DNA of 64,000 nucleotides, from assembly GCF_002188635.1 (NCBI RefSeq), contig NZ_NINX01000051.1, positions 186,001 through 250,000 on the forward strand, read 5' to 3'. Each line of letters begins with the position of its first letter. The stretch's first letter is position 1. A program made the translations under genes and the position numbers. Below the pieces are notes generated by a model, which did not search any database, was not told the origin of the DNA, and saw only the letters and a program-made list of their open reading frames with translations. Source of the stretch: Pigmentiphaga sp. NML030171 (GTDB lineage Bacteria; Pseudomonadota; Gammaproteobacteria; Burkholderiales; Burkholderiaceae_B). Positions 11,250-43,934 of the stretch are shown here, piece after piece.

Positions 11250-11397
11250 AGGATGCGGTGGATCCGGCTTTGCCGGTCCATCCGCATCGCCCCTCGGGAC
11301 CCGGCGCCGGGCCGCCCCAAGGCGGGTCCCGGCCCCTTGGGGCTGCCGCATAGCGGCTGGGGCCCACCATTCTGGGCGCGCGTCAGCGCGTAGGAGG
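11250..11397. repeat. Palindromic intergenic repeat, locus A
   Basis: Contains the family core hairpin (11260-11279, GGATCCGGCTTTGCCGGTCC), flanked by GATGCGG and CCGCATC arms, then a GC-rich hairpin-rich insert (about 11287-11375), and the border GCGCGCGTCAGCGCGTAGG at its right end. It fills the gap between the convergent Bug and cytochrome c genes and ends 7 bases from the cytochrome stop codon. The closest relative is locus B. It may serve as a bidirectional terminator. Confidence 0.8.
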
Positions 11398-11403
11398 ACC
11401 CTA

Positions 11404-11772
11404 CTACTTACGTACGGCCAGGTTGCCAGGCAGGCTGGACAGGTACGCCGCCACATCCTCGATGTCCTTGTCGGACAGTTGGACGGCGAACGCACCCATG
11501 ATGGCGTTCTTGCGGATGTTGGCCGACGGCGCGGCATTGGACTGGCCCCGGCGATACGCCTTCAGCGCATGCGCGAGGTAGTCGGGATGCTGGCCCGCCA
11601 GTTGGGGATAGCTGGGATCGATGGAGGTCTTGGCATCGGCACCGTGGCAGGAGGCACAGTTGATGCGATCGAACACCGCCTTGCCGGCGGCGATGTCGCC
11701 GGCGGCCTGGGCGGCCGACAGCGAGAGCAAGGCGCTGCCGACGAGGAAGGAAAGGCGCTGGATGGTCTTCAT
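11404..11772 (-). CDS. Class I c-type cytochrome, periplasmic
   Basis: 122-residue monohaem cytochrome c. The signal peptide is about 1-23 (ending AQAA); the haem site CASCH is at 39-43 with His43 as proximal ligand, and Met92 (NAIMGAF) is a probable distal ligand. It resembles c4/c5/c553-type small electron carriers. The start at 11772 begins a clean signal peptide; the frame is open further upstream inside the neighbouring gene. It lies 11 bases after the second cytochrome gene on the same strand. The electron donor and acceptor are unknown. Confidence 0.9.
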   Translation of the reverse strand: MKTIQRLSFLVGSALLSLSAAQAAGDIAAGKAVFDRINCASCHGADAKTSIDPSYPQLAGQHPDYLAHALKAYRRGQSNAAPSANIRKNAIMGAFAVQLSDKDIEDVAAYLSSLPGNLAVRK

Positions 11773-11783
11773 GGTCGGACGGC

Positions 11784-12143
11784 TCACTTCAGGCTGGAGT
11801 AATAGGCGGCCAGATCGGCGATGTCCTGCTCGGACAGGCTCTTGGCGATGCCAACCATGGAAGGATGCGTCCGCGCGCCGCTGGCGTACTCCTTCAGCGC
11901 CGCCTCGATGTACTTGGCGTTCTGCCCAGCAATCATCGGAACGTGATAGACCTCGGGAAAGCTGGCTTTGTAGCCCGGGATGCCATGGCAGCCTATGCAC
12001 ATGGAATTCTTGTCACGGGCGGCATCGGCGTTGCCGGTGATGGTAGCCGGCGGGGCCGATTGGGCCACGGCCGAGCCGACGACCGCACAGGCGGCCAGGG
12101 CGGCCAACGCGGGCAGCGCCCGCTTCGTTATGCTCAACTTCAT
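11784..12143 (-). CDS. Class I c-type cytochrome, periplasmic
   Basis: 119-residue monohaem cytochrome c with signal peptide about 1-27 (ending SAVA before QSAPP), haem motif CIGCH at 49-53 and probable Met96 ligand (THPSMVG). Its fold-end helix EQDIADLAAYYSSL parallels that of the downstream cytochrome, so the pair probably arose by duplication and may form a two-domain-like relay comparable to cytochrome c4. The 288-bp region between its start and the divergent MoxR gene is AT-rich in the middle (about 12235-12310) and probably holds its promoter. Confidence 0.9.
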   Translation of the reverse strand: MKLSITKRALPALAALAACAVVGSAVAQSAPPATITGNADAARDKNSMCIGCHGIPGYKASFPEVYHVPMIAGQNAKYIEAALKEYASGARTHPSMVGIAKSLSEQDIADLAAYYSSLK

Positions 12144-12431
12144 TAGAACGCTCTATCAGAATCAAGGAAATCCCGATACCGGGCGGCGAAACGACTGAGC
12201 GGCAACGCCCGGCCCCCACAGGCCAACGAAGCGTCTCCGTTTTATTCCATCGAGAAACCGTATTGTTGTACTCAGGTCCGGTTTCCGTCTTTATTTAACC
12301 CCTAATGATACATCAGGAACAACCTCCGTCCGCCGCCCCTTTTGCGGGACGGGCGCCGGTTCACCCTGCCCGTCCGGAGTTTTCTTATACTGGGTGCTTC
12401 GCCCCCGCGGGGCCCTACCGCCAGCCCGACC

Positions 12432-13307
12432 ATGCCCCAGTCCGTCTCGCCGTCCGCCGCCCGCTTCCAGGGCACCGACACCTACGTCGCCACCGACGAC
12501 CTGACGCTGGCCGTCAATGCCGCGCTCACGCTCGAGCGCCCGCTCCTGATCAAGGGCGAACCCGGCACCGGCAAGACCATGCTGGCCGAGGAAGTGGCCC
12601 GGGCGCTGGGGCGGCCGCTGCTGCAATGGCACATCAAGTCCACCACCAAGGCGCACCAGGGGCTGTACGAATACGACGCGGTCTCGCGCCTGCGCGATTC
12701 GCAGTTGGGCGACGAGAAGGTGCGCGACATCACGAACTACATCGTGCGCGGGGTGCTGTGGCAGGCCTTCGCCTCGCCCGAGCCGGTGGTGCTGCTGATC
12801 GACGAGATCGACAAGGCCGACATCGAATTCCCCAACGACCTGCTGCGCGAGCTGGACCGCATGGAATTCCACGTGTACGAAACGCGTGAAACCGTGCGTG
12901 CCGTGCACCGGCCGCTGGTCATCATCACCTCCAACAACGAGAAGGACCTGCCGGACGCCTTCCTGCGGCGCTGCTTCTTCCACTACATCCGGTTTCCCGA
13001 GAAGGAGACCATGGAACGCATCGTCGAAGTCCACTACCCCGGCCTGAAGAAGGAACTGTTGTCGGCGGCGCTGGACAGCTTCTTCCAGCTGCGCGAGACC
13101 CCGGGCCTGAAGAAGAAACCGTCCACGTCCGAACTGCTGGACTGGCTCAAGGTCCTGCTGGCCGAGGACATCCCGCCTGAAGCCTTGAAAAGCACCGACC
13201 GCGAAGCCGCCGTGCCTCCGCTGCATGGCGCGCTGCTGAAAAACGAACAAGACGTCCACCTGTTCGAACGCCTGATCCTCATGGCTAGAAGCGGCAGACG
13301 GGCATGA
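12432..13307 (+). CDS. MoxR-family AAA+ ATPase
   Basis: 291-residue AAA+ ATPase of the MoxR group, which works with VWA-domain partners in maturation of enzyme complexes or metal-centre insertion. Walker A is GEPGTGKT at 42-49, Walker B is LLIDEIDKAD at 121-130, sensor-1 is the IITSNNEKDLPDAFLRRC region with an arginine finger. The ATG at 12432 begins the conserved region. A TATACT -10-like box lies at 12387-12392 with no obvious -35. The VWA partner gene follows after a repeat element (locus B). Confidence 0.9.
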   Translation: MPQSVSPSAARFQGTDTYVATDDLTLAVNAALTLERPLLIKGEPGTGKTMLAEEVARALGRPLLQWHIKSTTKAHQGLYEYDAVSRLRDSQLGDEKVRDITNYIVRGVLWQAFASPEPVVLLIDEIDKADIEFPNDLLRELDRMEFHVYETRETVRAVHRPLVIITSNNEKDLPDAFLRRCFFHYIRFPEKETMERIVEVHYPGLKKELLSAALDSFFQLRETPGLKKKPSTSELLDWLKVLLAEDIPPEALKSTDREAAVPPLHGALLKNEQDVHLFERLILMARSGRRA

Positions 13308-13336
13308 AATCGCATCGATCCACCCCGCGCGTCATT

Positions 13337-13488
13337 CAGGGTGCCGCGGATCCGGCTTCGCCGGTCCGCCAGCGCCGCCCCCTGGGCCCGGCGCCGGGCC
13401 GCCCCAAGGCGGGCCCAGGCTCCCTCGGGGGGCTGCCGCGCAGCGGCGGGGGGCTCACCGTTCGGGGCGCGCGAAGCGCGTAGGGGGG
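13337..13488. repeat. Palindromic intergenic repeat, locus B
   Basis: Core hairpin GGATCCGGCTTCGCCGGTCC at 13348-13367, then a GC-rich hairpin block similar to locus A (GGCGCCGGGCCGCCCCAAGG in both), and border GCGCGCGAAGCGCGTAGGGGGG to 13488. It lies between the co-directional MoxR and VWA genes. Its final G-run is the only plausible Shine-Dalgarno for the VWA start at 13493. Confidence 0.8.
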
Positions 13489-13492
13489 CCTC

Positions 13493-14665
13493 ATGCTCAT
13501 TGATTTTTTTTACCATCTGCGCAAGCACCAGTTGCCGGTCTCCATCAACGAGTACCTGACGCTGCTGGAAGCGCTGTCGCGCCGGGTGATCGCGCCGTCG
13601 GTGGACGAGTTCTATCTGCTGGCCCGGATGACGCTGGTCAAGGACGAAAGCCAGTTCGACCGCTATGACCGGGCCTTCGCCAGCTACTACAAGGGCATCG
13701 AGGCGGCCTTCCCGCCGGGCAAGGAGATCCCGGCCGAATGGCTGGTGCAGCGCTTCATGCGCGAGCTGTCGCCCGAGGACAAGGCCGCGATCGAGAAGCT
13801 GGGCTGGGACAAGCTGATGGAACTGTTCCGCCAGCGGCTGGAGGAGCAGAAGGAACGCCACGAGGGCGGCAGCAAGTGGATAGGTACCGGCGGCACTTCG
13901 CCCTTCGGCAGCGGCGGCTACCACCCCGAGGGCATCCGCATCGGCCAGGACAGCGCCGGCAACCACAGCGCGGTCAAGGCCTGGGACATGCGCAGCTTCC
14001 GCGACTACGACGATCAGGTGGAACTGGGCACGCGCAACATCAAGGTGGCCCTGCGGCGGCTGCGCCGCTTCGCCCGCGAAGGCGCCGACCTGGAACTGGA
14101 CCTGGACGACACCATACGCAGCACGGCGCGCAATGCCGGGCACCTGGACATCCGCATGGTGCCCGAGCGGCACAATACGGTGAAGGTGCTGATGATGCTG
14201 GACGTGGGCGGCACGATGGACAGCCACATCCAGCGGATCGAGGAACTGTTCTCGGCCGCGCGCAGCGAGTTCAAGCACCTGGAAGTCTATTATTTCCACA
14301 ACTGCCTGTACGACTGGGTCTGGCAAAGCAACCGCCGGCGCCACGCCGAGCGCGCCCACACCTGGGACGTGCTGCGCAAGTACAACCCGGACTGGCGCCT
14401 GATCTTCGTCGGCGACGCCACCATGAGCCCGTACGAGATCCTGCAGCCGGGCGGTTCGGTGGAATACCACAACACCGAGGCCGGCGCGGTCTGGCTGCAG
14501 CGCATGGCCGCGGCCTATCCCCGTTTCGTCTGGCTCAATCCCGAGCCGGAGGGCCTGTGGCCCTACCGCCAATCCACCGACATCATCCGGAAACTGATGC
14601 AGGGCCGCATGTATCCCGTCACGCTGAGCGGCCTGGAACAGGCCATGCGGCTGCTGTCCAAGTAG
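13493..14665 (+). CDS. VWA-domain (CoxE-like) protein, MoxR partner
   Basis: 390-residue cytoplasmic protein with a C-terminal von Willebrand factor A-like domain from about residue 228. The MIDAS position reads D237-V-G-G-T241 instead of the classical DxSxS, so metal coordination is altered or lost; DVGG-type variants are known to me from CoxE-like proteins. An acidic N-terminal helical region (residues 1-125) and a glycine-rich linker (GGTSPFGSGG, about 133-142) precede it. The pairing with the MoxR ATPase is the classical operon arrangement. The start ATG at 13493 follows AGGGGGG contributed by the repeat element. Confidence 0.85.
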   Translation: MLIDFFYHLRKHQLPVSINEYLTLLEALSRRVIAPSVDEFYLLARMTLVKDESQFDRYDRAFASYYKGIEAAFPPGKEIPAEWLVQRFMRELSPEDKAAIEKLGWDKLMELFRQRLEEQKERHEGGSKWIGTGGTSPFGSGGYHPEGIRIGQDSAGNHSAVKAWDMRSFRDYDDQVELGTRNIKVALRRLRRFAREGADLELDLDDTIRSTARNAGHLDIRMVPERHNTVKVLMMLDVGGTMDSHIQRIEELFSAARSEFKHLEVYYFHNCLYDWVWQSNRRRHAERAHTWDVLRKYNPDWRLIFVGDATMSPYEILQPGGSVEYHNTEAGAVWLQRMAAAYPRFVWLNPEPEGLWPYRQSTDIIRKLMQGRMYPVTLSGLEQAMRLLSK

Positions 14666-14741
14666 CATCCCGGGCCGCGCGGCGGGAACGTTGTCGCGGC
14701 CCGGCACTCCAATCCACTTCCTGAACGGTTCGAGTCCGCCT

Positions 14742-17525
14742 ATGCCATCATCGCTCACCGCCAACCGCTCCGGTCTCCTGGGCCGGGCCTTCGCCTGCGT
14801 GGCCCTGTCCGCGGCCGCCCTGCTGCCGCCGGCTACCCACGCCGCCCAGGCCCGGACGCAGGCAGCCGTCCCTGCCGGCGTACAGAAGGTCACCTCGGTC
14901 GAAGGCATCAACGAATACCGGCTGAACAACGGGTTGCGCATCCTGCTGGCACCCGACCAGTCCAAGCCGACCACTACGGTCAACATGACCTATCTCGTGG
15001 GTTCCCGCCAGGAAAACTACGGCGAAACCGGCATGGCGCACCTGCTGGAACACATGCTGTTCAAGGGTACGCCCACGATGCGCAACGCGCTGGCCGAGTT
15101 TTCGCGCCGCGGCCTGCAGGCCAACGGCAGCACCTGGACCGACCGCACGAACTATTTCGCCAGCTTCGCCGCCAACGAGGCCAACCTGGACTGGTACCTG
15201 GGCTGGCAGGCCGACGCCATGGTCAACTCGCTGATCGCGCGCAAGGACCTGGACTCGGAAATGACCGTCGTGCGCAACGAGATGGAAAGCGGCGAGAACA
15301 ATCCGTTCCGTGTGCTGATGAGCAAGATGATGGCCGCGGCCTATCAGTGGCACAACTACGGCAAGACCACGATAGGCGCGCGCTCGGACGTCGAGAACGT
15401 CGACATCGGCCGCCTGCAGGCCTTCTACCGTACCTACTACCAGCCGGACAACGCCGTGCTGATCGTCTCGGGCCAGTTCGACGAGGCCAAGACGCTGGCC
15501 GTCATCGCCCGCACCTTCGGCAAGATACCCAAGCCCAAGCGCACCCTGCCGCGCCTGTACACCGAGGAACCGGTCCAGGACGGCGAGCGTAGCGTCACGC
15601 TGCGCCGCGCCGGCGGCTCGCCCATGGTCGCGGCCATGTACCACACGCCGCAGGGCGGCGCGGCCGATTCCGCGGCCATGGAAATGCTGGCCGGCATCCT
15701 GGGCGACGCGCCCTCGGGCCGGTTGTACAAGTCGCTGGTGGAAACCAAGCTGGCCGCCTCCACCTTCGGCTTCACCTTCGGCATGTACGATCCGGGCATG
15801 ATCATGATGGGCGCCCAGCTGCAGCCCGGCGCCAGCCTGGATGCCGCGCGCGACAAGATGCTGGAGACCATCGAGTCCATCAAGGCGCAGCCGATCACCA
15901 GCGAAGAGCTGGAGCGCGCGCGCACCCGCTGGCTCAAGGACTGGGACATGGCCTACAGCGATCCGCAGAAGGTGGGCGTGTCGCTGTCCGAGAGCATCGC
16001 CCAGGGCGACTGGCGACTGTTCTTCGTGACCCGGGACCGTATCCGCGACCTGAAGCTGGCCGACGTGCAGCGCGTGGCGGAAAGCTACCTGCTGCAATCG
16101 AACCGCACGCTGGGCACCTACATCCCGACCGACGGTCCCCAGCGCGCTCCCGCGCCGCAGCCCCTGGACCTGCAGGCCGAGCTGAAAGGCTACAAGGGCG
16201 ACACCGACTTCGTGCAGGCCGAGGCCTTCGACGCCACGCCGGCCAATATCGACGCCCGCACCCAGCGCAAGACGCTGGACCTGCCCAACGGGCCGGTCAA
16301 GCTGGCGCTGCTGCCCAAGTCGACGCGCGGCCACCTGGTCAATGCCCGCCTGGTGGTGCAGTTCGGCGACGCCGAGACGCTGCGCGGCCAGCGCGAGATC
16401 TCGCGCGCCGTGGGCGCCCTGCTCGACAACGGCACGGCCACGATGACGCGGCAGCAGATCGAGGACCGTTTCGACGCGCTGCGGGCGGACGTCGGCTTCG
16501 CCGGGGGCGGCACCAGCGCGGCGGTCGACATCTCGACCACCCGCGACAACCTGCCCGCCACGCTGGAACTGGTGCTGGACGTGCTGCGCAACGCCAACTT
16601 CCCCGAAGACCAGTTGGACGAGTACCGCCGCCGCGGCCTGGCCTCGGTGGAAAGCGCCCGCCAGGAGCCCACGGCCGTCGCGCAACAGGCCTTGGCGCGG
16701 CACGACAACCCATGGCCTGCCGACGACCTGCGCTACACCCCCAGCTTCGACGAGCAGGAGGCCGCCTACAAGGCGCTGACCCGCGATGCGCTGGTGCAGT
16801 TCCATGACCGATTCTACGGCGCGGGCCGCGTGCGGCTGGCCGCCGTGGGCGACTTCGACCCGGCGGCGGTCGAGCAGTCGCTGACCAAGGGCCTGCAAGG
16901 ATGGAAGAAGGCTCCGGCCTACACGCGCGTGGACGATCCCTACCATGCGGTGCCGGCCAAGCGCTTCGACATCTCGCTGCCCGACAAGGCCAACGCCTTC
17001 TACCTGTCCACCATGCCGATCAGGCTGCAGGACACCGATCCGGACTATCCCGCGGCCATGCTGGCGAACTACCTGCTGGGCAGTTCCGAGACCTCGCGGC
17101 TGTGGATGCGGGTGCGCGAACGCGAAGGCCTGTCGTACAACGTGCGCAGCCAGCTGTCGGCCTCGTCCTACGAACCCTCGGGCCAGTGGACGCTGTACGC
17201 CATCTACGCGCCCAGCAACCGGGCGCGGCTGGAGACGGCCATCAAGGAGGAATCCGAGCGCGTCCTGCGCGAAGGCTTCAGCGCGCAAGAGGTCAAGGAC
17301 GGCATCGACTCGCTGATGAACCTGCGCCACCTGGCCCGCGCGCAGGATCGGCGGCTGGCGGGTGCCTGGTCGGACTACCTGGACCTGGACCGCACCTTCG
17401 CCTTCGCGGCGGAATCCGACCGCAAGCTCAAGGCCCTGACCGCGGAGCAGGTCAACGCGGCGCTGCGCAAGTACTTCAAGCCCGAAGACTTCAGCACCGC
17501 GGTGGCGGGGACCTTCAAGCCGTAG
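14742..17525 (+). CDS. M16-family zinc metalloprotease (two-domain, secreted)
   Basis: 927-residue inverzincin peptidase (pitrilysin / PqqL-like) that would degrade peptides in the periplasm. The signal peptide covers about residues 1-35 (ends ATHAAQA). The zinc motif HLLEH is at 100-104 in the N-terminal half, while the C-terminal half lacks it, as is normal for the inactive second M16 domain. The RERE(G)LSY signature of the C-terminal domain is present as VREREGLSYNV. I chose the ATG at 14742 because it starts the signal peptide; an upstream ATG at 14691 is possible. Its last 11 bases overlap the convergent DUF2889 gene. Confidence 0.88.
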   Translation: MPSSLTANRSGLLGRAFACVALSAAALLPPATHAAQARTQAAVPAGVQKVTSVEGINEYRLNNGLRILLAPDQSKPTTTVNMTYLVGSRQENYGETGMAHLLEHMLFKGTPTMRNALAEFSRRGLQANGSTWTDRTNYFASFAANEANLDWYLGWQADAMVNSLIARKDLDSEMTVVRNEMESGENNPFRVLMSKMMAAAYQWHNYGKTTIGARSDVENVDIGRLQAFYRTYYQPDNAVLIVSGQFDEAKTLAVIARTFGKIPKPKRTLPRLYTEEPVQDGERSVTLRRAGGSPMVAAMYHTPQGGAADSAAMEMLAGILGDAPSGRLYKSLVETKLAASTFGFTFGMYDPGMIMMGAQLQPGASLDAARDKMLETIESIKAQPITSEELERARTRWLKDWDMAYSDPQKVGVSLSESIAQGDWRLFFVTRDRIRDLKLADVQRVAESYLLQSNRTLGTYIPTDGPQRAPAPQPLDLQAELKGYKGDTDFVQAEAFDATPANIDARTQRKTLDLPNGPVKLALLPKSTRGHLVNARLVVQFGDAETLRGQREISRAVGALLDNGTATMTRQQIEDRFDALRADVGFAGGGTSAAVDISTTRDNLPATLELVLDVLRNANFPEDQLDEYRRRGLASVESARQEPTAVAQQALARHDNPWPADDLRYTPSFDEQEAAYKALTRDALVQFHDRFYGAGRVRLAAVGDFDPAAVEQSLTKGLQGWKKAPAYTRVDDPYHAVPAKRFDISLPDKANAFYLSTMPIRLQDTDPDYPAAMLANYLLGSSETSRLWMRVREREGLSYNVRSQLSASSYEPSGQWTLYAIYAPSNRARLETAIKEESERVLREGFSAQEVKDGIDSLMNLRHLARAQDRRLAGAWSDYLDLDRTFAFAAESDRKLKALTAEQVNAALRKYFKPEDFSTAVAGTFKP

Positions 17526-18108
17526 TCCGCCCCCCGTCGGGAGGCCCGTCGCCGTCGGGCCTCCCGGCCGCATGCTGCGGCCACAGCATCTTCACCACTT
17601 CCCGGTCGCGGCCGAAGGCAAAACAGGAATCGATCTTCTCCCGTGCCCGCTCCTCGCCCATCAGCAGGGGCATGTCGCGCTGCAGCCCGCGTATGCCTTG
17701 CAAGGCCGTGGTCGCCATCGGCACCAGCATTTCCATCAAGTGGGTACAGCTGGCCGCGCCTCGCAACCGGTCCTTGACCATGGCCGTCCAGCCCCGGGCG
17801 ATGCGCTCGCCGACCAGCACGCGCAGCGTGTCCGTGGCTTCCTTGCATAGCGGCCAGGGCGTCGAATCCGACGCCGCCACGATGTCCCGGATCACATACG
17901 CGTCGTCCACCGTCAGGCGTATCCACAGGTCGTGGAGCGCTTCTCCCGCGGGCAGCGGGTCGTCCGAACTCATGAGTTGGAAGGGAAAGGGCTTGCGGTC
18001 GACCAGCCGGGCTTCCACGTCGTAGAGGCCGTCTTCGCGGGCGTAGGTCTGCATGTCGATGACGCGGTGGTGGACGGAGCGGCGGGCGGAGGGTTCCGGT
18101 AGAGGCAT
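17515..18108 (-). CDS. DUF2889 family protein
   Basis: 197-residue cytoplasmic protein matching DUF2889, an uncharacterised family. Typical are the N-terminal SVHHRVIDMQTYAREDGLYDVEA block, the conserved DRKPFPF stretch, a central LWIRLTVDDAYVIRDI segment and a Cys/His-containing CTHLMEML near residue 140. The C-terminus is a Gly/Asp/Pro-rich tail that overlaps the end of the protease gene. No function is known to me; the His and Cys residues could bind a metal (speculative). The gap 18109-18198 holds nothing recognisable. Confidence 0.8.
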   Translation of the reverse strand: MPLPEPSARRSVHHRVIDMQTYAREDGLYDVEARLVDRKPFPFQLMSSDDPLPAGEALHDLWIRLTVDDAYVIRDIVAASDSTPWPLCKEATDTLRVLVGERIARGWTAMVKDRLRGAASCTHLMEMLVPMATTALQGIRGLQRDMPLLMGEERAREKIDSCFAFGRDREVVKMLWPQHAAGRPDGDGPPDGGRTTA

Positions 18109-18198
18109 GATGGCAGGCTTCCTGGCTGGCGCCCAGCCATTGTAGAGGCACCGGCCCGCGCGATCGAATCGGCGGGCCCGGCCTCCATGCCAGCAACG

Positions 18199-19710: not shown

Positions 19711-19720
19711 GCGAGGCTCC

Positions 19721-20179: not shown

Positions 20180-20236
20180 GGTCCCCTCTTCTTGGTCTTG
20201 TCGGCCGGAGCCGCGGGCGCGATGGCCCGCACCCGG

Positions 20237-29135: not shown

Positions 29136-31076
29136 TTACTTGTCGTCTCTTTTGACTTCCTTGAAGTCGGCGTCGACCACGTTGTCGTCGGCCTTCGCTC
29201 CGCCGGCGTCACCGCCAGGAGCCGCACCCGCGCCGGCGGCCTGGGCCTGGGCTTGCATGTCGGCGTACATCTTTTCGCCGAGCTTCTGCGAAGCCTTGGA
29301 CAGCGCCTCGACCTTGGCGTCGATGGTGGCCTTGTCGCCTTCCTTCAGGACGTCCTCGAGATCCTTGATGGCGGCCTCGATGGATTCCTTCTCGGACGCC
29401 TCGAGCTTGTCGCCGTATTCCTCCAGCGACTTGCGGGTGGCGTGGACCAGGGCGTCGGCCTGGTTGCGCGACTGCGCCAGCTCGGCCACGCGCTTGTCCT
29501 CGTCGGCGTTCGCCTCGGCGTCGCGCACCATGCGTTCGACTTCATCCTCGGTCAGGCCGGAGTTGGCCTTGATCGTGATCTTGTTTTCCTTGCCGGTGCC
29601 CTTGTCCTTGGCCGACACGTGCAGGATGCCGTTGGCGTCGATGTCGAAGGTGACCTCGATCTGCGGCGTGCCGCGCGGCGAGGGCGGGATGCCTTCGAGG
29701 TTGAATTCGCCCAGCGCCTTGTTGCCGGCGGCGATTTCGCGCTCGCCCTGGAACACCTTGATGGTCACGGCCGGCTGGTTGTCGTCGGCGGTAGAGAACA
29801 CCTGCGAGAACTTGGTCGGAATCGTGGTGTTCTTCTTGATCATCTTGGTCATGACGCCACCCAGGGTCTCGATACCCAGGGACAGGGGCGTCACGTCCAG
29901 CAGCAGCACGTCCTTGCGGTCGCCCGACAGCACGGAGCCCTGGATCGCGGCGCCGGCGGCGACGGCCTCGTCGGGGTTCACGTCCTTGCGCGGATCCTTG
30001 CCGAAGAACTCCTTGACCTTCTCCTGCACCTTGGGCATGCGCGTCATGCCGCCGACCAGGATCACGTCGTCGATGTCCGAGACCTTGACGCCCGCATCCT
30101 TGATGGCGATGCGGCAGGGCTCGATCGTGCGGTTGATCAGGTCCTCGACCAGCGCTTCCAGCTTGGCGCGGGTGACCTTCAGGTTCAGGTGCTTGGGACC
30201 GGAGGCGTCGGCCGTGATGTACGGCAGGTTGATCTCGGTCTGCGTGGCCGACGACAGTTCGATCTTGGCCTTTTCAGCGGCTTCCTTCAGGCGCTGCAGG
30301 GCCAGGACGTCCTTGGACAGGTCCACGCCCTGTTCCTTCTTGAACTCGGCGATGATGTAGTTGATCAGCACCTGGTCGAAGTCCTCGCCGCCCAGGAAGG
30401 TGTCGCCGTTGGTGGACAGCACCTCGAACTGCTTCTCGCCGTCGACGTCGGCGATCTCGATGATGGACACGTCGAACGTGCCGCCGCCCAGGTCATAGAC
30501 GGCGATCTTGCGGTCGCCCTTTTCCGACTTGTCCAGGCCGAACGCCAGCGCGGCCGCGGTGGGCTCGTTGATGATGCGCTTGACGTCCAGGCCGGCGATG
30601 CGGCCGGCGTCCTTGGTCGCCTGGCGCTGGCTGTCGTTGAAGTAGGCCGGCACCGTGATCACGGCCTCGGTCACTTCCTCGCCCAGGTAGTCCTCGGCGG
30701 TCTTCTTCATCTTGCGCAGCACTTCGGCCGACACCTGCGGCGGGGCCAGCTTCTTGTCGCGCACCTGCACCCAGGCGTCGCCGTTGTCGGCCTTGACGAT
30801 GGCGTAGGGCATCAGGTCGATGTCCTTCTGCACCGCCTGTTCGTCGAACTTGCGGCCGATCAGGCGCTTGACGGCGTACAGGGTGTTCTTGGGGTTGGTA
30901 ACCGCCTGGCGCTTGGCCGGCGCGCCGACCAGGATCTCGCCGTCTTCCATGTAGGCGACGATCGAGGGGGTGGTGCGGGCGCCTTCGGCGTTTTCGATGA
31001 TCTTGACCTGCTGGCCTTCCATCACTGCGACGCAGCTATTGGTGGTGCCCAGGTCGATGCCTATGATTTTGCCCAT
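29136..31076 (-). CDS. dnaK: Chaperone DnaK (Hsp70)
   Basis: 646 residues. The ATPase domain begins [20 protein letters not shown] and includes the [14 protein letters not shown] and [14 protein letters not shown] phosphate-loop motifs; the linker [18 protein letters not shown] leads to the substrate-binding domain and helical lid, and the C-terminus ends in an acidic stretch with EVKRDDK. Central cytoplasmic chaperone, working with DnaJ and GrpE encoded on either side. A sigma-32-like promoter lies at 31123-31147. Confidence 0.99.
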
Positions 31077-31122
31077 AATCCTTGTTCCTGAAAGAAATCA
31101 GAAAATTTCGCTTGATCAATAA

Positions 31123-31836: not shown

Positions 31837-32084
31837 CCCCCCCCTACGCGCTAACGCGCGCCCCCCAGGGGGCGAAACCGGCGGACCGGCAAAGCCGGAT
31901 CCGCGGTTTCCTGGGTCTAGGGAAACGATCTTGGACTGAAGCACGGTTGCTACCGCTGGCAGCCAGCGATAGCAACCGGGCCACGACCCAAGATGGTCCC
32001 ACTAGACCCAGGATGCGGTGGATCCGGCTTTGCCGGTCCACCCGCATCGCCCCCTGGGGGGCGCGCGTCAGCGCGTAGGGGGGG
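31837..32084. repeat. Palindromic intergenic repeat, locus C (full-length element)
   Basis: About 248 bp forming one long interrupted palindrome. Left border CCCCCCTACGCGCTAACGCG, left core at 31883-31902 (GGACCGGCAAAGCCGGATCC), inner arms beginning CTGGGTCTAGG, a central hairpin (GGTTGCTACCGCTGGC at 31945-31960 facing 31962-31977), inverted inner arm ending CTAGACCCAG, right core at 32020-32039, and right border ending GCGCGTAGGGGGG. It fills the 339-bp gap between hslR and grpE, 3 bases from the hslR stop codon. Nearly the same element occurs at locus F. Confidence 0.85.
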
Positions 32085-34670: not shown

Positions 34671-34676
34671 AAAGGG

Positions 34677-34682: not shown

Positions 34683-34773
34683 CCCCCCCTACGCGCTTAC
34701 GCGCGCCCCCCCGGGGGGGGCGGCACTGGCGGACCGGCGGAGCCGGATCCGCAGTGCCCTGGCAACTGCCAGG
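34683..34773. repeat. Palindromic intergenic repeat, locus D (half element)
   Basis: Border CCCCCCTACGCGCTTACGCG from 34683, core GGACCGGCGGAGCCGGATCC at 34731-34750 with outer arms GGCACT and AGTGCC, and a terminal hairpin CCTGGCA-AC-TGCCAGG (34758-34773). It lies between the divergent hrcA and nadK starts and directly abuts the hrcA -10 box. Confidence 0.8.
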
Positions 34774-34885
34774 CTGATAGGGGCCGGGGTTCTTTAGAGG
34801 AACGGCGTTCAAGGTGGGTGAACGGATTGAGTATTGGGAATGGCAAAAAGGACCACATGGGGCCCCGTTGGGGGGTCTCCCCTCA

Positions 34886-34891
34886 TATAAT
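34886..34891 (+). promoter_or_regulatory. -10 box of nadK implying a leaderless transcript (TATAAT)
   Basis: Perfect TATAAT followed by six bases and the ATG at 34898. No clear -35 hexamer and no Shine-Dalgarno are visible. Predicted start of transcription is the A of ATG. Confidence 0.6.
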
Positions 34892-34897
34892 GCCTGC

Positions 34898-35794: not shown

Positions 35795-35826
35795 TCTTTC
35801 CCGCCCCTTCCACCGGCCCCATTCGT

Positions 35827-37470: not shown

Positions 37471-37488
37471 GGCGGGCCAGCGCCCGCC
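37471..37488. terminator. Bidirectional terminator hairpin between recN and fur
   Basis: GGCGGGC-CAGC-GCCCGCC, a perfect 7-bp stem with a 4-base loop, immediately after the recN stop and 12 bases from the fur stop. The flanking T-richness is modest in both directions. Confidence 0.55.
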
Positions 37489-37500
37489 CCTTGCCTGCCT

Positions 37501-37920
37501 TCAGCGGCTCTTGGCGCAGTTCTGGCAGATGCCGTAGAGCGACAGCGCGTGCCCGGTCAGCACGAAGTTGTGATCCTTGGCGATCTTCTGCTGGCGTTTT
37601 TCGATTTCCGCGTCGAAGAACTCCTCGACCTTGCCGCAATTGGTGCAGACCAGATGGTCATGGTGGTCGCCCTCGTTCAGCTCGAACACGGCCTTGCCGC
37701 TGTCGAACTGGCTGCGGACCAGCAGCCCGGCCTGCTCGAACTGCGTCAGCACGCGATAGACCGTGGCCAGCCCGATCTCGACGCTTTCGCCGATCAGGGC
37801 CCGATAGACGTCTTCGGCGCTCATGTGGCGCACTTCGGCCTTGCGGAAGACATCCAGGATCTTGAGCCGGGGAAAGGTCGCTTTCAGGCCTATACTTTTG
37901 AGTTCGCTTTGATCTGTCAT
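37501..37920 (-). CDS. fur: Ferric uptake regulator Fur
   Basis: 139 residues. N-terminal winged helix (about 1-80), then the His cluster HHDH at 86-89 and two Cys pairs, C92/C95 (CTNC) and C132/C135 (CQNC), giving the usual metal and zinc sites. Binds Fe2+ and represses iron-acquisition genes; a likely target is the PepSY operon at 4.3 kb. Divergent from bamE, a conserved betaproteobacterial arrangement; I see no strong Fur box in the 285-bp gap. AAGGGATC precedes the ATG. Confidence 0.97.
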
Positions 37921-38205
37921 GATGATCCCTTCTGAAAGCGGTTTCGTGTGTCGGTCCCCGCTGGACGGCGGGAACCGGCGTGGGTGCTGGGTCTTCGAGC
38001 CCAGTCAGCCATCTGGCGCGCGACACGCGCATGGCGCGGCGCTCCGGCATGGAAGGCGGCGGGACGGCCCGGCTCGGCGCACGAAGCGCCCTGTTACCCG
38101 TCCCGCGGCAGCCGTCCTGAAGTGCCGGGAAAGCCCCGGAAAAGCCCAGGCAATCCCCGAGGGCTTTATGATAACGGTTTCCCCAATCAAGACGAGTGCG
38201 GATCT

Positions 38206-38817
38206 GTGCCAAACGCTCTGATTTCCTTCATCCACGGCCAAGCCGGCACCTTGCGGCGGCTGGCCCCGGCCGCGCTGCTGGGCCTGGCGGCATGCAGCTC
38301 GGTCAACAACTACGTCCCGAACTTCGTCAAACCCTACCGGGCCGACGTCCAGCAGGGCAACTGGCTGACCCAGCAACAAGTGGAGCTGCTGCGCCCCGGC
38401 ATGACCCGCGAACAGGTGCGTTTCGCCCTGGGCAGCCCTACCCTGACCAGCATTTTCCATTCCGACCGTTGGGACTATCCGTACCTGTTCACGCCGGGCC
38501 ACGGGCAGACCGAGGAACGGCGCTTCACCGTCTATTTCGTCAACGACCGGCTCGAGCGCTGGACCGGCGATGAACAGCCCGCCCGCCAGCCGTTCCAGCA
38601 GAAGGACACGCGCAAGGCCCTGGGCGCCATCACGCAGCCGGCCCAGCAGGCCCCGAACGCGGCGCCCCTGACGGTCGAGGGCAACGCCGCCTCTCCCAGC
38701 CTGGACCCCGGTTCCGCGCCCGCCGTCGCCACGCCGGTCGCTCCGCTCGCGCCTCCCGCCGCACCGCCCTCCGGCGACGCGGCCCCCGCTCAACCCGCCA
38801 CGAATACCAAGGAATGA
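38206..38817 (+). CDS. bamE: Outer membrane assembly lipoprotein BamE (OmlA/SmpA)
   Basis: 203 residues from a GTG start. Lipobox LLGLAAC places the lipidated Cys near residue 27, followed by the conserved [21 protein letters not shown] and the [18 protein letters not shown] motif of BamE, part of the BAM beta-barrel assembly complex. Compared with E. coli it carries a long Pro/Ala-rich C-terminal extension (about residues 125-203). The frame is open from 37948, but the upstream part has no protein-like character; GTG at 38206 gives a normal-length lipoprotein signal peptide. The start is not certain. TATGAT at 38168 could be its -10. Confidence 0.88.
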
Positions 38818-38822
38818 CCTCG

Positions 38823-39632
38823 ATGCGTATCGCCATTGCCGGGGCTACCGGCCGCATGGGCCACATGCTGATCGAAGCCGTGCTCGCCGCCCCCGACCTG
38901 GAACTGGCCGTCGCGCTGGACCGCGCAGGCAGCCCCGCCATCGGCCACGATGCCGCCGAGTTCCTGGGCAAACAAAGCAAGGTCATCATCACCGACGACC
39001 TGGACGCTCTTGCCCAGGCCGACTGCCTGATCGACTTCACCCGACCCGAGGCCACGCTGGCCCACCTGGAAGCCTGCCGCCGCCACGGCGTCAAGCTGGT
39101 CATCGGCACCACGGGCTTCGACGAAGCCGGCAAGGCCGCGATCGCGGCGGCCGCCGACAAGGTCGGCGTGGTCTTCGCGCCCAACATGAGCGTGGGCGTG
39201 AACGTCACCCTCAAGCTGCTGGACATCGCCGCCCGCATCCTGAAGGACGATTACGACGTGGAAGTGTTCGAGGTCCACCACAAGCACAAGGTGGATGCTC
39301 CATCCGGCACGGCGCTGAAAATGGGTGAAACCGTGGCGCAGGCCTGGGGCAAGCCGCTGTCCGAGGTGGCCGAGTGGGCCCGCCATGGCGACACCGGAGC
39401 CCGCAAGCACGGCACCATCGGCTTTTCCTCCGCCCGCGGCGGCGACGTGGTGGGAGACCACACGGTCTTCTTCTGTGGCCCGGGCGAACGCATCGAGATC
39501 ACCCACCGCTCGAGCAGCCGCGTCAACTACGCCGAAGGCAGCCTGCGCGCCGCCCGCTATCTGGCGGACAAGTCGGCCGGCCTGTATGACATGCAGGACG
39601 TCCTGGGTCTGAGGTCCCCCCCTACGCGCTAA
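38823..39632 (+). CDS. dapB: 4-hydroxy-tetrahydrodipicolinate reductase
   Basis: 269 residues; NAD(P)H-dependent step of lysine and diaminopimelate synthesis. Rossmann motif GATGRMG at 7-13; catalytic block [14 protein letters not shown] with His152/His153 and Lys156. The ATG at 38823 is preceded by AAGGA at nine bases; another ATG at 38814 overlaps the bamE stop. The natural C-terminus would be MQDVLGL, but the frame continues six codons (RSPPTR) into repeat locus E, whose TAA ends the protein. Its rho-independent terminator lies beyond the repeat. Confidence 0.96.
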
Positions 39633-39787
39633 CGCGCGCCCCGCAGGGGGCGATGCGGGTGGACCGGCAAAGCCGGATCCACCGCATCCTGGGTCTGGGT
39701 GCGGACGTCTCGGGGCGGAGCGCCGCATCCCCTCAACGGTGCTGGCGGACCGGCAAAGCCGGATCCGCTGTGCCCTGGCAACGGCTA
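39616..39787. repeat. Palindromic intergenic repeat, locus E (two cores)
   Basis: Border CCCCCTACGCGCTAACGCG at the left, core 1 at 39661-39680 and core 2 at 39747-39766, both GGACCGGCAAAGCCGGATCC. The first half resembles the left half of locus C/F with GATGCGG-type arms; the second resembles locus D. TCCTGGGTCTG occurs at 39601-39611 (in dapB) and again at 39687-39697, flanking the first half as a direct repeat. Confidence 0.8.
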
Positions 39788-39788
39788 G

Positions 39789-39818
39789 AACGGCCTCTTA
39801 TGGGGCCGTTTTGCTTTT
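39789..39818 (+). terminator. Rho-independent terminator of dapB
   Basis: AACGGCC (39789-39795), 8-base loop, GGCCGTT (39804-39810), then TTGCTTTT. A good intrinsic terminator, separated from the dapB stop by the 172-bp repeat locus E, and ending on the stop codon of the convergent cheB. Confidence 0.75.
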
Positions 39819-40474
39819 CAGGGTCCATTGATGGCCTTGTTCTTGGCTTCTACGGCGATGACCAGGCGCTGGGCCATCTGGGGCAGCGGGACGATCTCGT
39901 GGACGGCGCCCAGGGCGATGGCTTCGCGAGGCATGCCGAAGACCACGCTCGACGCTTCGTCCTGGGCAAGGTTGTAGGCGCCGGCCTCGCGCAGCGTCAG
40001 CATGGCCCGCGCGCCGTCCTTGCCCATGCCGGTCAGCATGACGGCCACGGTGCACGCCCCCGCCGCGCGGGCGGCCGACAGGAACAGGACTTCGACCGAG
40101 GGACGGTGGCGATTGACCGGCTCGCCCTCGGACAACTGCGCGTGATAGCCCAGCAGCGGCAGCGGCCGCACCGCCAGGTGCGCGTGGCCGGGAGCCACAT
40201 AGACGTGCCCTGGATGCAGCCGTTCGTTGTGCTCGGCTTCCTTGACGCGCAGCGGCGTGTGCTTGTCCAGGCGCTCGGCGAAGCTGCGCGTGAACCCGGG
40301 CGGCATGTGCTGGGTGATGACGATGGGCGGCAGGTCGGCGGGCAGCGCTTCCAGCAGGTCGCGCAGCGCTTCGGTGCCGCCCGTCGAGGCGCCGATGGCG
40401 ACCAGCAGCCTGCGGTCGTATTGGGACGGCGGAGGCGCGCGGCCGTCGGCGGGCCGGTGGTGCTCGTCGGTCAT
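39818..40474 (-). CDS. cheB: CheB-type methylesterase lacking a receiver domain
   Basis: 218 residues consisting only of the CheB catalytic domain. The triad is visible as Ser30 (GASTGG), His56 (TQHMPPGF) and Asp153 (TGMGKDGA). Normal CheB has an N-terminal receiver domain of about 120 residues and a linker; here only a short Pro-rich lead (residues 1-20) precedes the catalytic part, so phosphorylation control must be absent or supplied in trans. It starts 8 bases after cheR, so cotranscribed. The start ATG has no good Shine-Dalgarno, suggesting coupling. Confidence 0.9.
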
Positions 40475-40482
40475 GGATGCGC

Positions 40483-41334
40483 TCAGCCCGGCTGCCTGGC
40501 GTAGACGGTACGCCCCTGGAGCACGAAGCGCTGCTGCCCCTGGGAAAAGCTTTCGGAATGCCCGACGAACAGCAGGGCTCCGGCCGGCATCAACCCGGCC
40601 ATGCGCTCGACCACCCGCAATTGCGTGGGGCGGTCGAAATAGATGAGGACGTTGCGGCAGAACACCGCATCGAGCGGCCCGCGCACCGGCCAGGCGGGAT
40701 CCAGCAGGTTCAACTGGCGGAAATTCACCAGCGCGCGCAGTTCGGGCCGCACGGCGTACAAGCCCTCGGCTTCCTCGATGAAGTAGCGCCGCGCCTGCTG
40801 GTCGGGCACCTTGGCCAGTTGATCCCGCCGGTACACGGCCTGGCGCGCGGTGGCCAGCACATGGGTGTCCAGGTCGGTCGCCAGGATGCGCACCGGCGGC
40901 GCCAGGGTCCCGAACACCTCGGCGGCCGTGATGGCCAGGGTCCAGGCCTCTTCGCCCGTGGAAGCGGCCGCGCACCAGAGTTGCAGGGTCTGGCCCGGGC
41001 GCTCGGCGGCCAGCCGCTTCAGGTAGGCGGCCAGGATCTGGAAATGGTGGTTCTCGCGGTAGAAATACGTGAGATTCGTGGTCAGCGCGTTGACGAAGTA
41101 TTCCCATTCAGGCGCGCCGGCGCGCAGGCCCTCCAGGTAGGCGCTGAAGGACGGACGGCCGGTCGCGCGCAGCCGCCGGGCCAGCCGGCTGTAGACCATG
41201 CTGCGCTTGGCGTCCGACAGCGAAATGCCGGTGTGCTGCCGCAACAGGGTCCGTATCCGGTCGAAATCCTGGCCGCTGAAGGCGAATTCGGTGCCGACGA
41301 GAGAGTCGGCCGTGCCCGGCATGGCGTCGGTCAT
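40483..41334 (-). CDS. cheR: CheR-type chemoreceptor methyltransferase
   Basis: About 283 residues. N-terminal helical CheR domain ([33 protein letters not shown]), then the SAM-dependent methyltransferase with [36 protein letters not shown] and CRNVLIYFD. It would methylate glutamates on chemoreceptors. The frame is open to a TTG at 41436, but a sigma-28 promoter (41405-41431) lies inside that part, so translation must begin further in: ATG at 41334 (used) or GTG at 41361. Pairs with cheB; no receptor gene is nearby. Confidence 0.9.
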
Positions 41335-41404
41335 GGCCAGGAGGCTGGTTCTGGAAGTCACGCTTGGCCCTAAAGGAAAAGCCCCCACGCTATCATTGAC
41401 GGGA

Positions 41405-41431
41405 TTATCGGCAACACTTACTGATTCATTA
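41405..41431 (-). promoter_or_regulatory. Sigma-28 (FliA) promoter of cheR-cheB
   Basis: On the minus strand TAATGAAT (-35, 5 of 8 to TAAAGTTT), an 11-base spacer, and a perfect GCCGATAA -10. Start of transcription would be near 41398. It lies in the gap shared with the divergent histidine kinase gene and ties this signalling island to the flagellar regulon. Confidence 0.7.
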
Positions 41432-41435
41432 AGCA

Positions 41436-43058
41436 ATGTTCAATCGCGGCCCCGTCTCCGTGCAGAACGCCAGCCCCCCGCAGGCCGGCCTGCCTCGCTT
41501 CATGACGGCCGCGCCCGGCCAGGCCCCGGCCGCGCTGGGCCCCGACGCCCGCGAAGCCTCGCAACTCGCCATCCTCTTCATCGAGGACTCGCTCGCCGAC
41601 TTCACGCTGATGCGCGCCGTGCTGGTCGACGCGGGGCTGAACGTCACGGCCCAGTGCGTGGACACCGAAACGACCATGCGGCAGGCCTTGGCCGAACGAG
41701 CCTGGGACGCCATCATCAGCGATCATTCCCTGCCGACCTTCAGCGGCCTGCGCGCGCTGAAGGTGGCCAAGGAAGTCGGGTTCCGCGGCCCCTTCCTCAT
41801 CGTGTCCGGCGCCATCGGCGAGGAAACCGCGGTCGAGGCTATGCGGGCCGGCGCCGACGACTATGTCATGAAGAACAACCTGCGCAGGCTCCCTCCCGCG
41901 CTGGAACGCGGCCTGCGCGAAGTGCAGACCCGCGACCAGCGGCAACGGGCGGAAACCGCGCTGGCCTCGGCCCACGATCAGCTGAACGCGGTCTTCTCGG
42001 CCACGCCGGTCGCCCTGTTCGCCATCTCGCGCGAGCGTACCGTCACCATGTGGAGCCCGGCCTGCGAAGACCTGACCGGACTGGGCTCGGCCGACACGCT
42101 GTCCCGCTCGTTCGCCCTGCCCTCGCAGCCCGACACCTGGAAGCTGCTGACCCTGATCGCCCCGGCGCTGGACGGTTCCGAGGTACGCGGCCTGCCGTTC
42201 AGCATAGAAACCCGGGGCGAAAAGCGCGAGTTGCTGGTATCGGCCAGTCCGCTCAGCGGTTCTCCGCCTTCGGGATGCGTGGTCGCGCTGTCCGACGTCA
42301 CTCACCTGGCCCATGCGCAGGCGGAACTCAGCCGTTCCGAAAGCCAGCTGCGCGAACTCTCCCGCCACACCGAGCGCGTGCGGGAGAACGAACGGGCCGA
42401 ACTCGCGCGCGAGATCCACGACGATCTGGGCGCCCTGGTCACCCGGATACGCGCCGACCTCGCGCTGGCCCGCCGCCGCTCCCGCGAAAAGGAAACGGCG
42501 CAGTTGCTGGACGAAGCCGAACAGATGGTCGCTTCGCTGGGCGAGGCCATCTCCCGTATCGCCCGGGCCATGCGGCCGCCCGTGCTCGACTTCGGCATCG
42601 TTGCCGCGATCGAGTGGCAAGCGCGCGATTTCGCGCAGCACACGGGCATCACCGTCAACGTCCACACCAACCAGGACGACCTGGCGCTCGAACTGGAGCA
42701 ATCCATCGCCGTCTTCCGCATCTTCCAGGAAGCCCTGACCAACGTGTTCAAGCATGCGCAGGCCACGCGCGTGGACGTCGACCTCTTCGCCGACGACAGC
42801 ACCCTCAGCCTGGAAGTCCGCGACAACGGCATCGGCCTGTCGTCCGACGCGCTGCGCAAGGGAACGTCGTTCGGCCTGCGCGGCATGATGGAACGCGTCC
42901 ACGGCCTGGGCGGCTGGATGGACATAGGCGGCGCGCCCCAGACGGGCACGCCGCCTTTCCGAGGAACCACACTCATGATTTCGATCCCGTTGAATCCCCC
43001 TACGCTCTCCCTGCCTGGCGGAAAATCCCCCCACCACGAGCCGGAGGACCAGGAATGA
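41436..43058 (+). CDS. REC-PAS hybrid histidine kinase (NarX/DegS-type catalytic core)
   Basis: 540 residues, no membrane segment, so cytoplasmic. An N-terminal receiver domain (about 45-160, phospho-acceptor Asp96 in ISDHSLP) is followed by a PAS-like domain (about 180-290), a HisKA_3 dimerisation helix with His328 in EIHDDLGA, and an HATPase domain (N-box FQEALTNVFKHA, G1 DNGIGL, G2 FGLRGMMERV). Receiver input at the N-terminus of a kinase suggests it takes a phosphoryl signal from another system. The downstream NarL-type regulator overlaps by ATGA and is the obvious partner. A weak TTGACG (41396-41401) could be its -35. Confidence 0.88.
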   Translation: MFNRGPVSVQNASPPQAGLPRFMTAAPGQAPAALGPDAREASQLAILFIEDSLADFTLMRAVLVDAGLNVTAQCVDTETTMRQALAERAWDAIISDHSLPTFSGLRALKVAKEVGFRGPFLIVSGAIGEETAVEAMRAGADDYVMKNNLRRLPPALERGLREVQTRDQRQRAETALASAHDQLNAVFSATPVALFAISRERTVTMWSPACEDLTGLGSADTLSRSFALPSQPDTWKLLTLIAPALDGSEVRGLPFSIETRGEKRELLVSASPLSGSPPSGCVVALSDVTHLAHAQAELSRSESQLRELSRHTERVRENERAELAREIHDDLGALVTRIRADLALARRRSREKETAQLLDEAEQMVASLGEAISRIARAMRPPVLDFGIVAAIEWQARDFAQHTGITVNVHTNQDDLALELEQSIAVFRIFQEALTNVFKHAQATRVDVDLFADDSTLSLEVRDNGIGLSSDALRKGTSFGLRGMMERVHGLGGWMDIGGAPQTGTPPFRGTTLMISIPLNPPTLSLPGGKSPHHEPEDQE

Positions 43059-43687
43059 TCCGTCTGGTGCTCGCCGACGACCACGCCATCGTGCGCTCCG
43101 GCCTGCGGCAGATCGCGCAGGCCGAGGAAGGCATATCGGTGGTCGGAGAAGCGGCCGATTGCGGCGACCTGCTCGACGTGCTGCGCAAGACCGAGGCCGA
43201 CGTCGTGCTGATGGACATATCCATGCCCGGCAAGAACGGGCTCGAAGGGCTCAAGCAGGTGCGCGAACGCTGGCCGCGCATCGCCGTGCTCATGCTCAGC
43301 ATGTATCCCGAGGACCAGTACGCGGTACGCAGCGTCAAGGCCGGCGCGGCCGGCTACCTGCACAAGAACTCCCCGCCCGAAACCGTGATCGAGGCCATCC
43401 GGACCGTCGCGCGCGGCAAGAAATACATCACGCCCGAACTGGCCGAACAACTGGCCACCCACCTCAGCCAGGGCGACGAGCGCCCGCCGCACGAATTGTT
43501 GTCCGACCGCGAATACCAGACCATGGTGATGATCGCCTCGGGCCGCACCCTGACCCAGATCGCCGAGGAAATCTCCCTCTCGCCCAAGACCGTCTCGGTC
43601 TACCGCGCACGCCTGCTCGAGAAGATGAAGCTCAAGAACAACGCCGAGCTGACCCACTACGCGCTGAAACACAAACTGGTGGAGTAG
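43055..43687 (+). CDS. NarL/FixJ-type response regulator
   Basis: 210 residues: receiver domain with acidic pocket DDH at 8-10 and Asp54 (VLMDISMPG), and a C-terminal LuxR-type HTH (about 145-205: LSDREYQTMVMIASGRTLTQIAEEI, SLSPKTVSVYRARLLEKM). The start overlaps the kinase stop (ATGA) with GGAGG upstream. Target genes are unknown; neighbours suggest motility or chemotaxis control. Its stop is 3 bases from repeat locus F. Confidence 0.93.
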   Translation: MIRLVLADDHAIVRSGLRQIAQAEEGISVVGEAADCGDLLDVLRKTEADVVLMDISMPGKNGLEGLKQVRERWPRIAVLMLSMYPEDQYAVRSVKAGAAGYLHKNSPPETVIEAIRTVARGKKYITPELAEQLATHLSQGDERPPHELLSDREYQTMVMIASGRTLTQIAEEISLSPKTVSVYRARLLEKMKLKNNAELTHYALKHKLVE

Positions 43688-43689
43688 AG

Positions 43690-43934
43690 GCCCCCCCTAC
43701 GCCCTTCGGCCCCCCCCAGGGGGCGAAACCGGCGGACTGGCAAAGCCAGATCCGCGGTTTCCTGGGTCTAGGGAAACCATCTTGGACTGAAGTACAGTTG
43801 CTATCGCTGGCAGCCAGCGATAGCACCGGTGCAACAACCCAAGACAACCCCACTAGACCCAGGATGCGGTGGATCCGGCTCCGCCGGTCCACCCGCATCG
43901 CCCCCTTGAGGGGGCCCGCGTAGCGGGTAGGGGG
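43690..43934. repeat. Palindromic intergenic repeat, locus F (full-length element)
   Basis: Near-copy of locus C. Left core GGACTGGCAAAGCCAGATCC (43734-43753) carries a C-to-T and a G-to-A change that keep the stem paired relative to locus C. The central hairpin (about 43797-43827) and right core GGATCCGGCTCCGCCGGTCC (43871-43890) follow. The right border reads GGGCCCGCGTAGCGGGTAGG, also changed on both sides of its stem. It separates the convergent NarL-type regulator and REC-ATPase genes. Confidence 0.85.

Follow-up and report, generated by a model that had tools for sequence, protein, structure and literature searches.

A 64,000-nucleotide stretch of Pigmentiphaga sp. NML030171 (contig NZ_NINX01000051.1, positions 186,001 to 250,000; hereafter the window) carries members of one family of mosaic palindromes at six loci, A to F. 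Judged from sequence, this family is real, abundant and structured, and is of the kind formed by repetitive extragenic palindromic (REP) sequences and bacterial interspersed mosaic elements (BIMEs). The reading that we favour, and consider rather probable, is that these are REP/BIME-like mosaic palindromes whose units lie next to stop codons and whose population is kept similar mainly by short-patch non-allelic exchange. As far as three species and homology searches indicate, two points appear unusual: the sites are shared with their contents exchanged, and no competent REP-associated tyrosine transposase (RAYT) was found.

Anatomy and abundance of the units

The family was first recognized by a 20-bp core hairpin, GGACCGGCNNAGCCGGATCC. 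With at most 3 mismatches the core has 10 matches in the window against 0.33 expected, a number reached by none of 100 shuffles, and nine of the 10 fall at the six loci to which the sequence-only reading had assigned it. The tenth, at position 40683 with 3 mismatches, lies outside them and is probably a chance match. The complete unit, about 80 nt long, combines a C-tract with two small hairpins (the head hairpin and the C5/G5 hairpin) and a longer one that is bulged and has covarying arms. Oriented so that the core reads on the + strand, its parts follow one another in the order C6-7, head hairpin, CCCCCCAGGGGGC, arm, core, matching arm and CTGGGTCTA. The head hairpin is mostly ACGCGC-TNA-CGCGCG, with GCCC-TTC-GGGC, GCGGCC-TTC-GGCCGC and others also present, and the arms are of the types GATGCGGGT, GGCACTGGC, GAAACCGGC and GGCGCTGGC, plus rarer ones. 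The long hairpin, of 37 nt, is bulged by a G on its 5' side and an A on its 3' side. Of 35 clusters, 25 are single units; elsewhere the units form inverted pairs or tandem runs. The core-to-core spacing is 136-137 bp in 41 of 52 inverted pairs, a sample drawn from stretches partly chosen for carrying the hairpin that lies at the centre of such pairs. One stretch of the host, C12:60459-61163, is a tandem array of inverted pairs in a convergent gap, with a period of ~213 bp and truncated outer arms.

The 183 units collected from three genomes yield 74 distinct long hairpins, 72 of which were aligned for covariation, two truncated tandem joints being left out. Standard pairs made up 93.0% of the pair cells (84.6 when shuffled), the covariation score was 0.289 (0.136 when shuffled), and both sides had changed in 146 cells (46.6 when shuffled); these cells count related sequences and not events. 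None of 500 shuffles reached any of the three values, and sliding the partners by one to three columns gave at most 15 cells changed on both sides. The cores had been chosen with at most 2 mismatches, which favours the inner pairs and not the arms; pair 6-32 was non-standard in 23 of the 72 hairpins. Locus C (31839-32083) is predicted to fold end to end into one 245-nt hairpin (-218.2 kcal/mol, z -21.7), and six of seven units folded singly had z values of -2.8 to -4.3.

The host genome (5,862,145 bases in 57 contigs) contains 201 exact cores (93 + 108; 0 + 0 in a backward-read control) and 218 with at most one mismatch (control 0 + 1). The sequence-only reading had anticipated many dispersed copies, as against motifs confined to the six loci or conserved at the same gaps in all relatives. 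Both of these possibilities are ruled out, the former by the ~200 copies in the host and the latter by the 0-7 exact cores in four of the ten other genomes of the genus, whose compared stretches contain none. In all, the repeats are abundant in seven of the 11 genomes of the host genus: G190, G191, G194, G195, G196 and G197 have 166 to 229 exact cores each, and the low-copy genomes have 0 (G189), 7 (G192), 6 (G193) and 1 (G198). At least one exact core is present in 63 of 268 genomes of the host's family, the top counts outside the genus being 123 (G106), 60 (G026) and 45 (G105). An order-wide sample of 399 genomes gave nine matches, four among 13 genomes of the host's family and five among the 386 outside it; these five all belong to one other family and have at most 26 copies. 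The spread of the head motif is narrower than that of the core: the host has 114 copies, the six high-copy relatives of the genus have 102 to 141 each, G226 has 24, and every other of the 268 family genomes has at most 5.

Related genera were searched allowing at most 2 mismatches. In four named Bordetella genomes the core counts were 0, 1, 1 and 6 and the control counts 1, 1, 5 and 10 (the 6-core genome, Bordetella genomosp. 13, has two exact copies), a metagenome-assembled genome labelled B. parapertussis gave 0 and Alcaligenes faecalis 1. Two Achromobacter genomes had 20 and 14 cores against controls of 10 and 5, and Verticiella sediminum 47 against 4. A bulge-free subtype, GGACCGGCAAAGCCGGCTCC, makes up part of the low-copy cores in the Achromobacter genomes G273 and G274. 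In four units of G106 (L293, L294) the parts are arranged in the same order but the head hairpins are others, and two in G445, from another family of the order (L295, L296), share the C5/G5 hairpin, the arms and the core, their head being less clear; because of these related units, the Pigmentiphaga repeats appear to be one branch of a larger group.

Turnover at shared sites and the search for a transposase

The host was compared with G196 and G191, to which it is 93.2% and 93.0% identical in long alignments. Of 141 sites sought, 69 could be placed by both flanks (host sites: 22 of 51 in G196 and 21 of 51 in G191; G196 sites: 26 of 39 in G191), and the sequence between the flanks was compared. 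At 66 of the 69 the site is occupied in both genomes, a count that starts from the first genome's sites only. The occupants differ in arm type, orientation or unit number at 28 of these 66; the comparisons share sites and are not independent, and some stretches had been chosen for carrying a composite. Among the 69, 38 have the same units, nine the same layout with another arm type, eight an altered orientation or order of unchanged arm types (at four distinct sites), 11 a different unit number and three no core. The variable presence at orthologous gaps that the sequence-only reading took as a mark of mobility is seen, but in these three species a changed occupant is commoner than an absent one.

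The contents of the sites suggest how they change. The interiors of 18 allelic pairs of composites fall at 0.949-0.989 identity (eight pairs) or at 0.72-0.92 (ten pairs); for 588 non-allelic pairs the mean is 0.82 and the 95th percentile 0.92. All four allelic pairs with a reversed layout are in the low-identity group, and the reversed occupants best match copies at other sites. At C55:121697 and C55:128622 the species differ in both arms at once but not in the adjoining sequence, and at C1:171637 the host is the same as G196 up to the central hairpin and different beyond it. These patterns may reflect non-allelic exchange among resident copies. In the mechanism that we propose, short-patch exchange with heads and cores as the homology would now keep the population similar, with replacements that range from an arm pair through half an element to an entire one and can be placed either way round. 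The likeliest origin of the dispersal itself would be a RAYT that has since been lost. Higgins et al. reportedly asked, in 1988, whether REP sequences evolve by gene conversion.

In-place inversion was considered for two reversed occupants, C55:217882 in G196 and C55:229733 in G191, and rejected, since both match copies from elsewhere better than they match their own alleles. A third site with a reversed occupant, C55:27997, is spaced differently and lies outside the allele comparison. Gap B carries a unit without its extra block in G190, G194, G195, G196 and G197, and one in the opposite orientation in G191. No core is present in the compared stretches of G189, G192, G193 and G198, hence none at gaps B to F where both flanks were found; gap A was comparable in two relatives only. 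Gap F of G194 (L044, about 14820-14870) holds a different perfect inverted repeat, with ~19 bp per arm and a TTGC loop.

A partner transposase of the TnpA-REP type had been suggested, and no competent one was found in the host or in genomes with at least 45 cores. PF01797 had no match in the host, in 10 genomes with at least 45 exact cores or in nine of the ten other genomes of the genus; it matched 64 of the 268 family genomes, among which the highest core count is 20. The low-copy genome G198 has a partial Y1_Tnp match in a 36-aa open frame. We also searched the 11 genus genomes with a RAYT protein of G006, which scores 79.5 bits with NCBIfam REP_Tyr_transpos (cut-off 80; a second RAYT, from G102, scores 88.1). 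This search returned one divergent relative in each genome and one weak partial match in G194 (E 0.04), in which frames of at least 60 aa contained no HUH, NPVR or YIE motif. The view that RAYTs are wholly absent was dropped, a divergent relative being present in all 11 genomes, and gave way to the narrower statement that a competent RAYT was not found, because the relative is without the catalytic residues. Its kinship with RAYTs extends along its length (hhalign probability 99.4%). Its 30 best matches come from four genera and have QLL, QLV, QWI or RIL at the HUH positions and W in place of the tyrosine. Pfam has no family for it. With a profile of the relative, matches of E 1e-5 or lower were obtained in 217 of the 268 family genomes, usually one per genome; an RpoH-type motif stands beside it at two of nine loci checked, both in the genus, and was not seen at the seven loci from other genera. 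Since it also occurs in low-copy and copy-free genomes, the relative does not explain the abundance of the repeats. Matched in most family genomes and devoid of catalytic residues, it is a separate lead on the host role of RAYT-type proteins. We put forward only tentatively a bolder reading, in which a population of ~200 units would persist in homogeneous form without a competent RAYT by frequent short-patch non-allelic gene conversion among copies fixed behind stop codons. Each site would then be inherited while its occupant came from a common pool, and the conserved relative lacking HUH and tyrosine may bind the hairpins as a host factor.

An alternative that seems to us rather unlikely is that a recently lost RAYT copied a population of REPs or of REPINs (REP doublets forming hairpins), the differences at shared sites being fresh insertions near or into old copies, and deletions. 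The REP-like anatomy agrees with this, as do the usual RAYT-like genes in other genera of the family and the partial match in G198. However, PF01797 is lacking from eight genomes with more than 100 exact cores and from two with 45 and 60, GTAG does not lie 5' of the hairpin, a copy is absent in only 3 of the 69 comparisons, and insertion does not change an arm pair and keep its neighbours, as happened at two sites. Because the sites are mostly shared, their contents differ and no competent RAYT was found, conversion and RAYT activity predict different outcomes here, and the genus is culturable, so that the two accounts can be tested against each other. Allelic import of short homologous segments from other Pigmentiphaga strains, which we judge unlikely, would also leave patches with intact flanks, and strain diversity is unsampled, each species being represented by one genome. 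Against it, the reversed occupants C55:217882 (G196) and C55:229733 (G191) have their nearest counterparts at different sites of the other species, and a reversed occupant requires non-allelic exchange or reinsertion at some stage.

Placement at stop codons and comparison with known repeats

The position of the units was analysed in 710 kb of host sequence, using home-made gene calls and gaps of at least 30 bp; the gene caller was seeded with 16 genes, most of them Pfam-supported, and its recovery of 16 of 16 is no independent test. None of the 35 core clusters is centred in a called gene. Ten lie in convergent gaps (of 41 such gaps), 24 in co-directional gaps (of 259) and one in a divergent gap (of 95), this one being locus D. 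The convergent, co-directional and divergent counts are 6, 11 and 1 for the 18 clusters of G196 and 6, 10 and 1 for the 17 of G191. In 40 of 51 cores the head is turned towards the 3' end of a gene. The distance from stop codon to head was measurable for 34 of these 40, and 28 of the 34 lie within -25 to +16 nt; uniform placement in the gaps put on average 4.7 heads in that range, with a maximum of 12 over 5000 draws. Four of the 28 close heads enclose the stop codon. With ~9 unpaired nt ahead of the first stem, this stem lies no more than 15 nt from the stop codon in ~23 of the 34, including the four with the stop inside the head.

REPs of E. coli lying less than 16 nt from a stop codon are reported, in the excerpted text of PMC12306157, to lower translation. 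By sequence position, most of the measured heads are within this reported distance, and the units may act on translation as the E. coli REPs do. The units would be transcribed as part of the 3' untranslated region, and a stem close to the stop codon would slow the terminating ribosome or resist 3' exonucleases, as has been reported for REPs. Their placement provides a natural set of units for the study of hairpin effects on translation.

Location at gene 3' ends would also suit terminators, and in gap F of G194 another perfect inverted repeat stands where the element would be; that the units are the terminators of their genes nevertheless appears improbable. In the units listed, the long hairpin is followed by CTGGGTCTA or similar and not by the T-run of an intrinsic terminator. 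Past the core, a hairpin with a T-run follows at six of 32 gene 3' ends with a unit (19 of 213 ends without a unit have one), and in these six the transcript has a later hairpin than the unit. The other 26 ends have no such hairpin in a simple scan, which leaves room for Rho-dependent or hairpin-only termination.

Several observations weigh against units placed at stop codons and maintained by exchange. The other six of the 34 measured heads lie 17, 28, 119, 214, 330 and 543 nt from the stop codon (some of them are inner members of a tandem array), and 11 of the 51 heads point to a start codon at distances spread from 4 to 269 nt. The number of pairs changed on both sides is 6 against 5.0 in shuffles (reached by 132 of 500) and that of further pair types 22 against 19.6 (reached by 20 of 500), and the fold of locus B, with z -0.54, is no better than shuffles. 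Absent copies do occur, and reverse look-ups add one, G196 site 46927, which is absent in the host; a change of occupant could be an import from unsampled strains. G198 has a single core, yet its RAYT-like protein is 79% identical to that of the host, as is that of the high-copy G190 (79%).

The REPs and BIMEs of E. coli and Pseudomonas are intergenic, biased to gene 3' ends, and built of bulged palindromes, inverted pairs, tandem arrays and mosaic motifs. The likeness to them noted in the sequence-only reading is borne out: the copies here are dispersed and extragenic, ~200 in number, with the same placement bias and architecture, each an imperfect bulged palindrome. As in BIMEs, orientations alternate, joining motifs recur and most inverted pairs are equally spaced. 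The sequence is a different one, however, with no GTAG tag 5' of the hairpin and apparently no CGTC tag there, the scan being one for GTAG; CTAC occurs in the head of 130 of the 183 units, that is, as GTAG on the other strand and 3' of the hairpins, and is lacking from the head of the other 53. The added head and C5/G5 hairpins, the failure to find a competent RAYT and the measured heads mostly at stop codons are further differences.

REPIN-RAYT systems, as described in excerpts of PMC8049555 and PMC3116915, share with our repeats two inverted units around a spacer, a single-hairpin fold and a within-genome population. In those systems REPINs are said to be duplicated by the RAYT (excerpt of PMC8049555, 2021) and singlets to be decaying remnants. 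Here, by contrast, single units form 25 of 35 clusters, no RAYT with both HUH and tyrosine was found in the high-copy genomes, and the RAYT relative has neither. The Bor repeats of Bordetella are likewise short palindromes near coding regions in related bacteria (26-30 bp according to PMC1590033), known from the excerpts of PMC1590033 and PMC2267715 by description and not by consensus. Our core (at most 2 mismatches) is not above control in four Bordetella genomes, among which B. bronchiseptica and B. pertussis do not figure. The excerpted PMC3733652 describes untagged families in Bordetellae, which PMC1590033 calls Bor repeats, as resembling REPs and being without terminal tags, as well as dispersed CGTC-tagged REPs said to lack a dedicated transposase; the latter differ from our repeats in their tag and, in that excerpt, are mainly from another bacterial class. 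Among the best matches in the open-licence literature we found no account of these repeats in Pigmentiphaga. Miniature inverted-repeat transposable elements, the other type proposed at the outset, gain no support, and movement by a DDE transposase reading the outer heads as terminal inverted repeats is highly improbable: composites do have long outer inverted repeats, but single units prevail among the clusters, two presence/absence sites show no target duplication (at C55:149551 the empty site of G191 retains CCCCCTA), and no partner transposase came to light, classes other than RAYT being unsearched.

The six loci of the window

The coordinates of the units are collected in the table, together with those of the RAYT relative of the host.

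Table. Repeat units of the window and the RAYT relative of the host (window coordinates unless a contig is named)
Feature	Position	Strand	Core	Remarks
Locus A, one unit + extra GC-rich hairpin block	11251..11398	-	11260-11279	head ends at 11398 and adjoins 3' end of cytochrome c gene
Locus B, one unit + extra block	13340..13488	-	13348-13367	head points to start codon of downstream VWA gene
Locus C, left unit	31839..31920	+	31883-31902	GAAACCG-type arms
Locus C, central hairpin	31949..31973	.		GCTACCGCTGGCAGCCAGCGATAGC, between two units; C55:217949-217973
Locus C, right unit	32003..32083	-	32020-32039	GATGCGG-type arms
Locus D, single unit	34684..34767	+	34731-34750	GGCACTG-type arms; hrcA / NAD kinase gap
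Locus E, first unit	39617..39692	+	39661-39680	GATGCGG-type arms
Locus E, second core	39735..39780	+	39747-39766	without recognisable head
Locus F, left unit	43692..43770	+	43734-43753	GAAACCG-type arms; compensated core GGACTGGCAAAGCCAGATCC
Locus F, central hairpin	43800..43824	.		C55:229800-229824
Locus F, right unit	43855..43934	-	43871-43890	GATGCGG-type arms
RAYT relative in host	C56:117356-118030 (L207:1630-2331)	-		adjoins rpoH-like gene

The modular layouts described from the letters alone hold: C and F are inverted pairs, D is a single unit, E has two cores in the same orientation, and the extra GC-rich block is indeed confirmed in both A and B. The border motif has five window matches (at most 3 mismatches) against 0.13 expected, at A, C (two), D and E; the pattern misses the variants at B, which has a TTC loop, and at F, where other hairpin letters occur. 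The surrounding genes are arranged as had been stated, convergent at A, E and F, co-directional at B and C and divergent at D. The intergenic position needs one correction: it is not strict for E, whose head overlaps the dapB stop codon: the TAA (39630-39632) forms the loop of the head hairpin (39617-39636). In the element-free genomes G189, G193 and G198, dapB has its own TAA at about the point where the E head begins in the host. At gathering thresholds Rfam had no match in the window. A Pfam NAD-GH (PF10712) match at 29253-31091 (+) lies opposite a long open frame at 29136-31076 (-) near grpE; NAD-GH is known as a spurious family antisense to dnaK.

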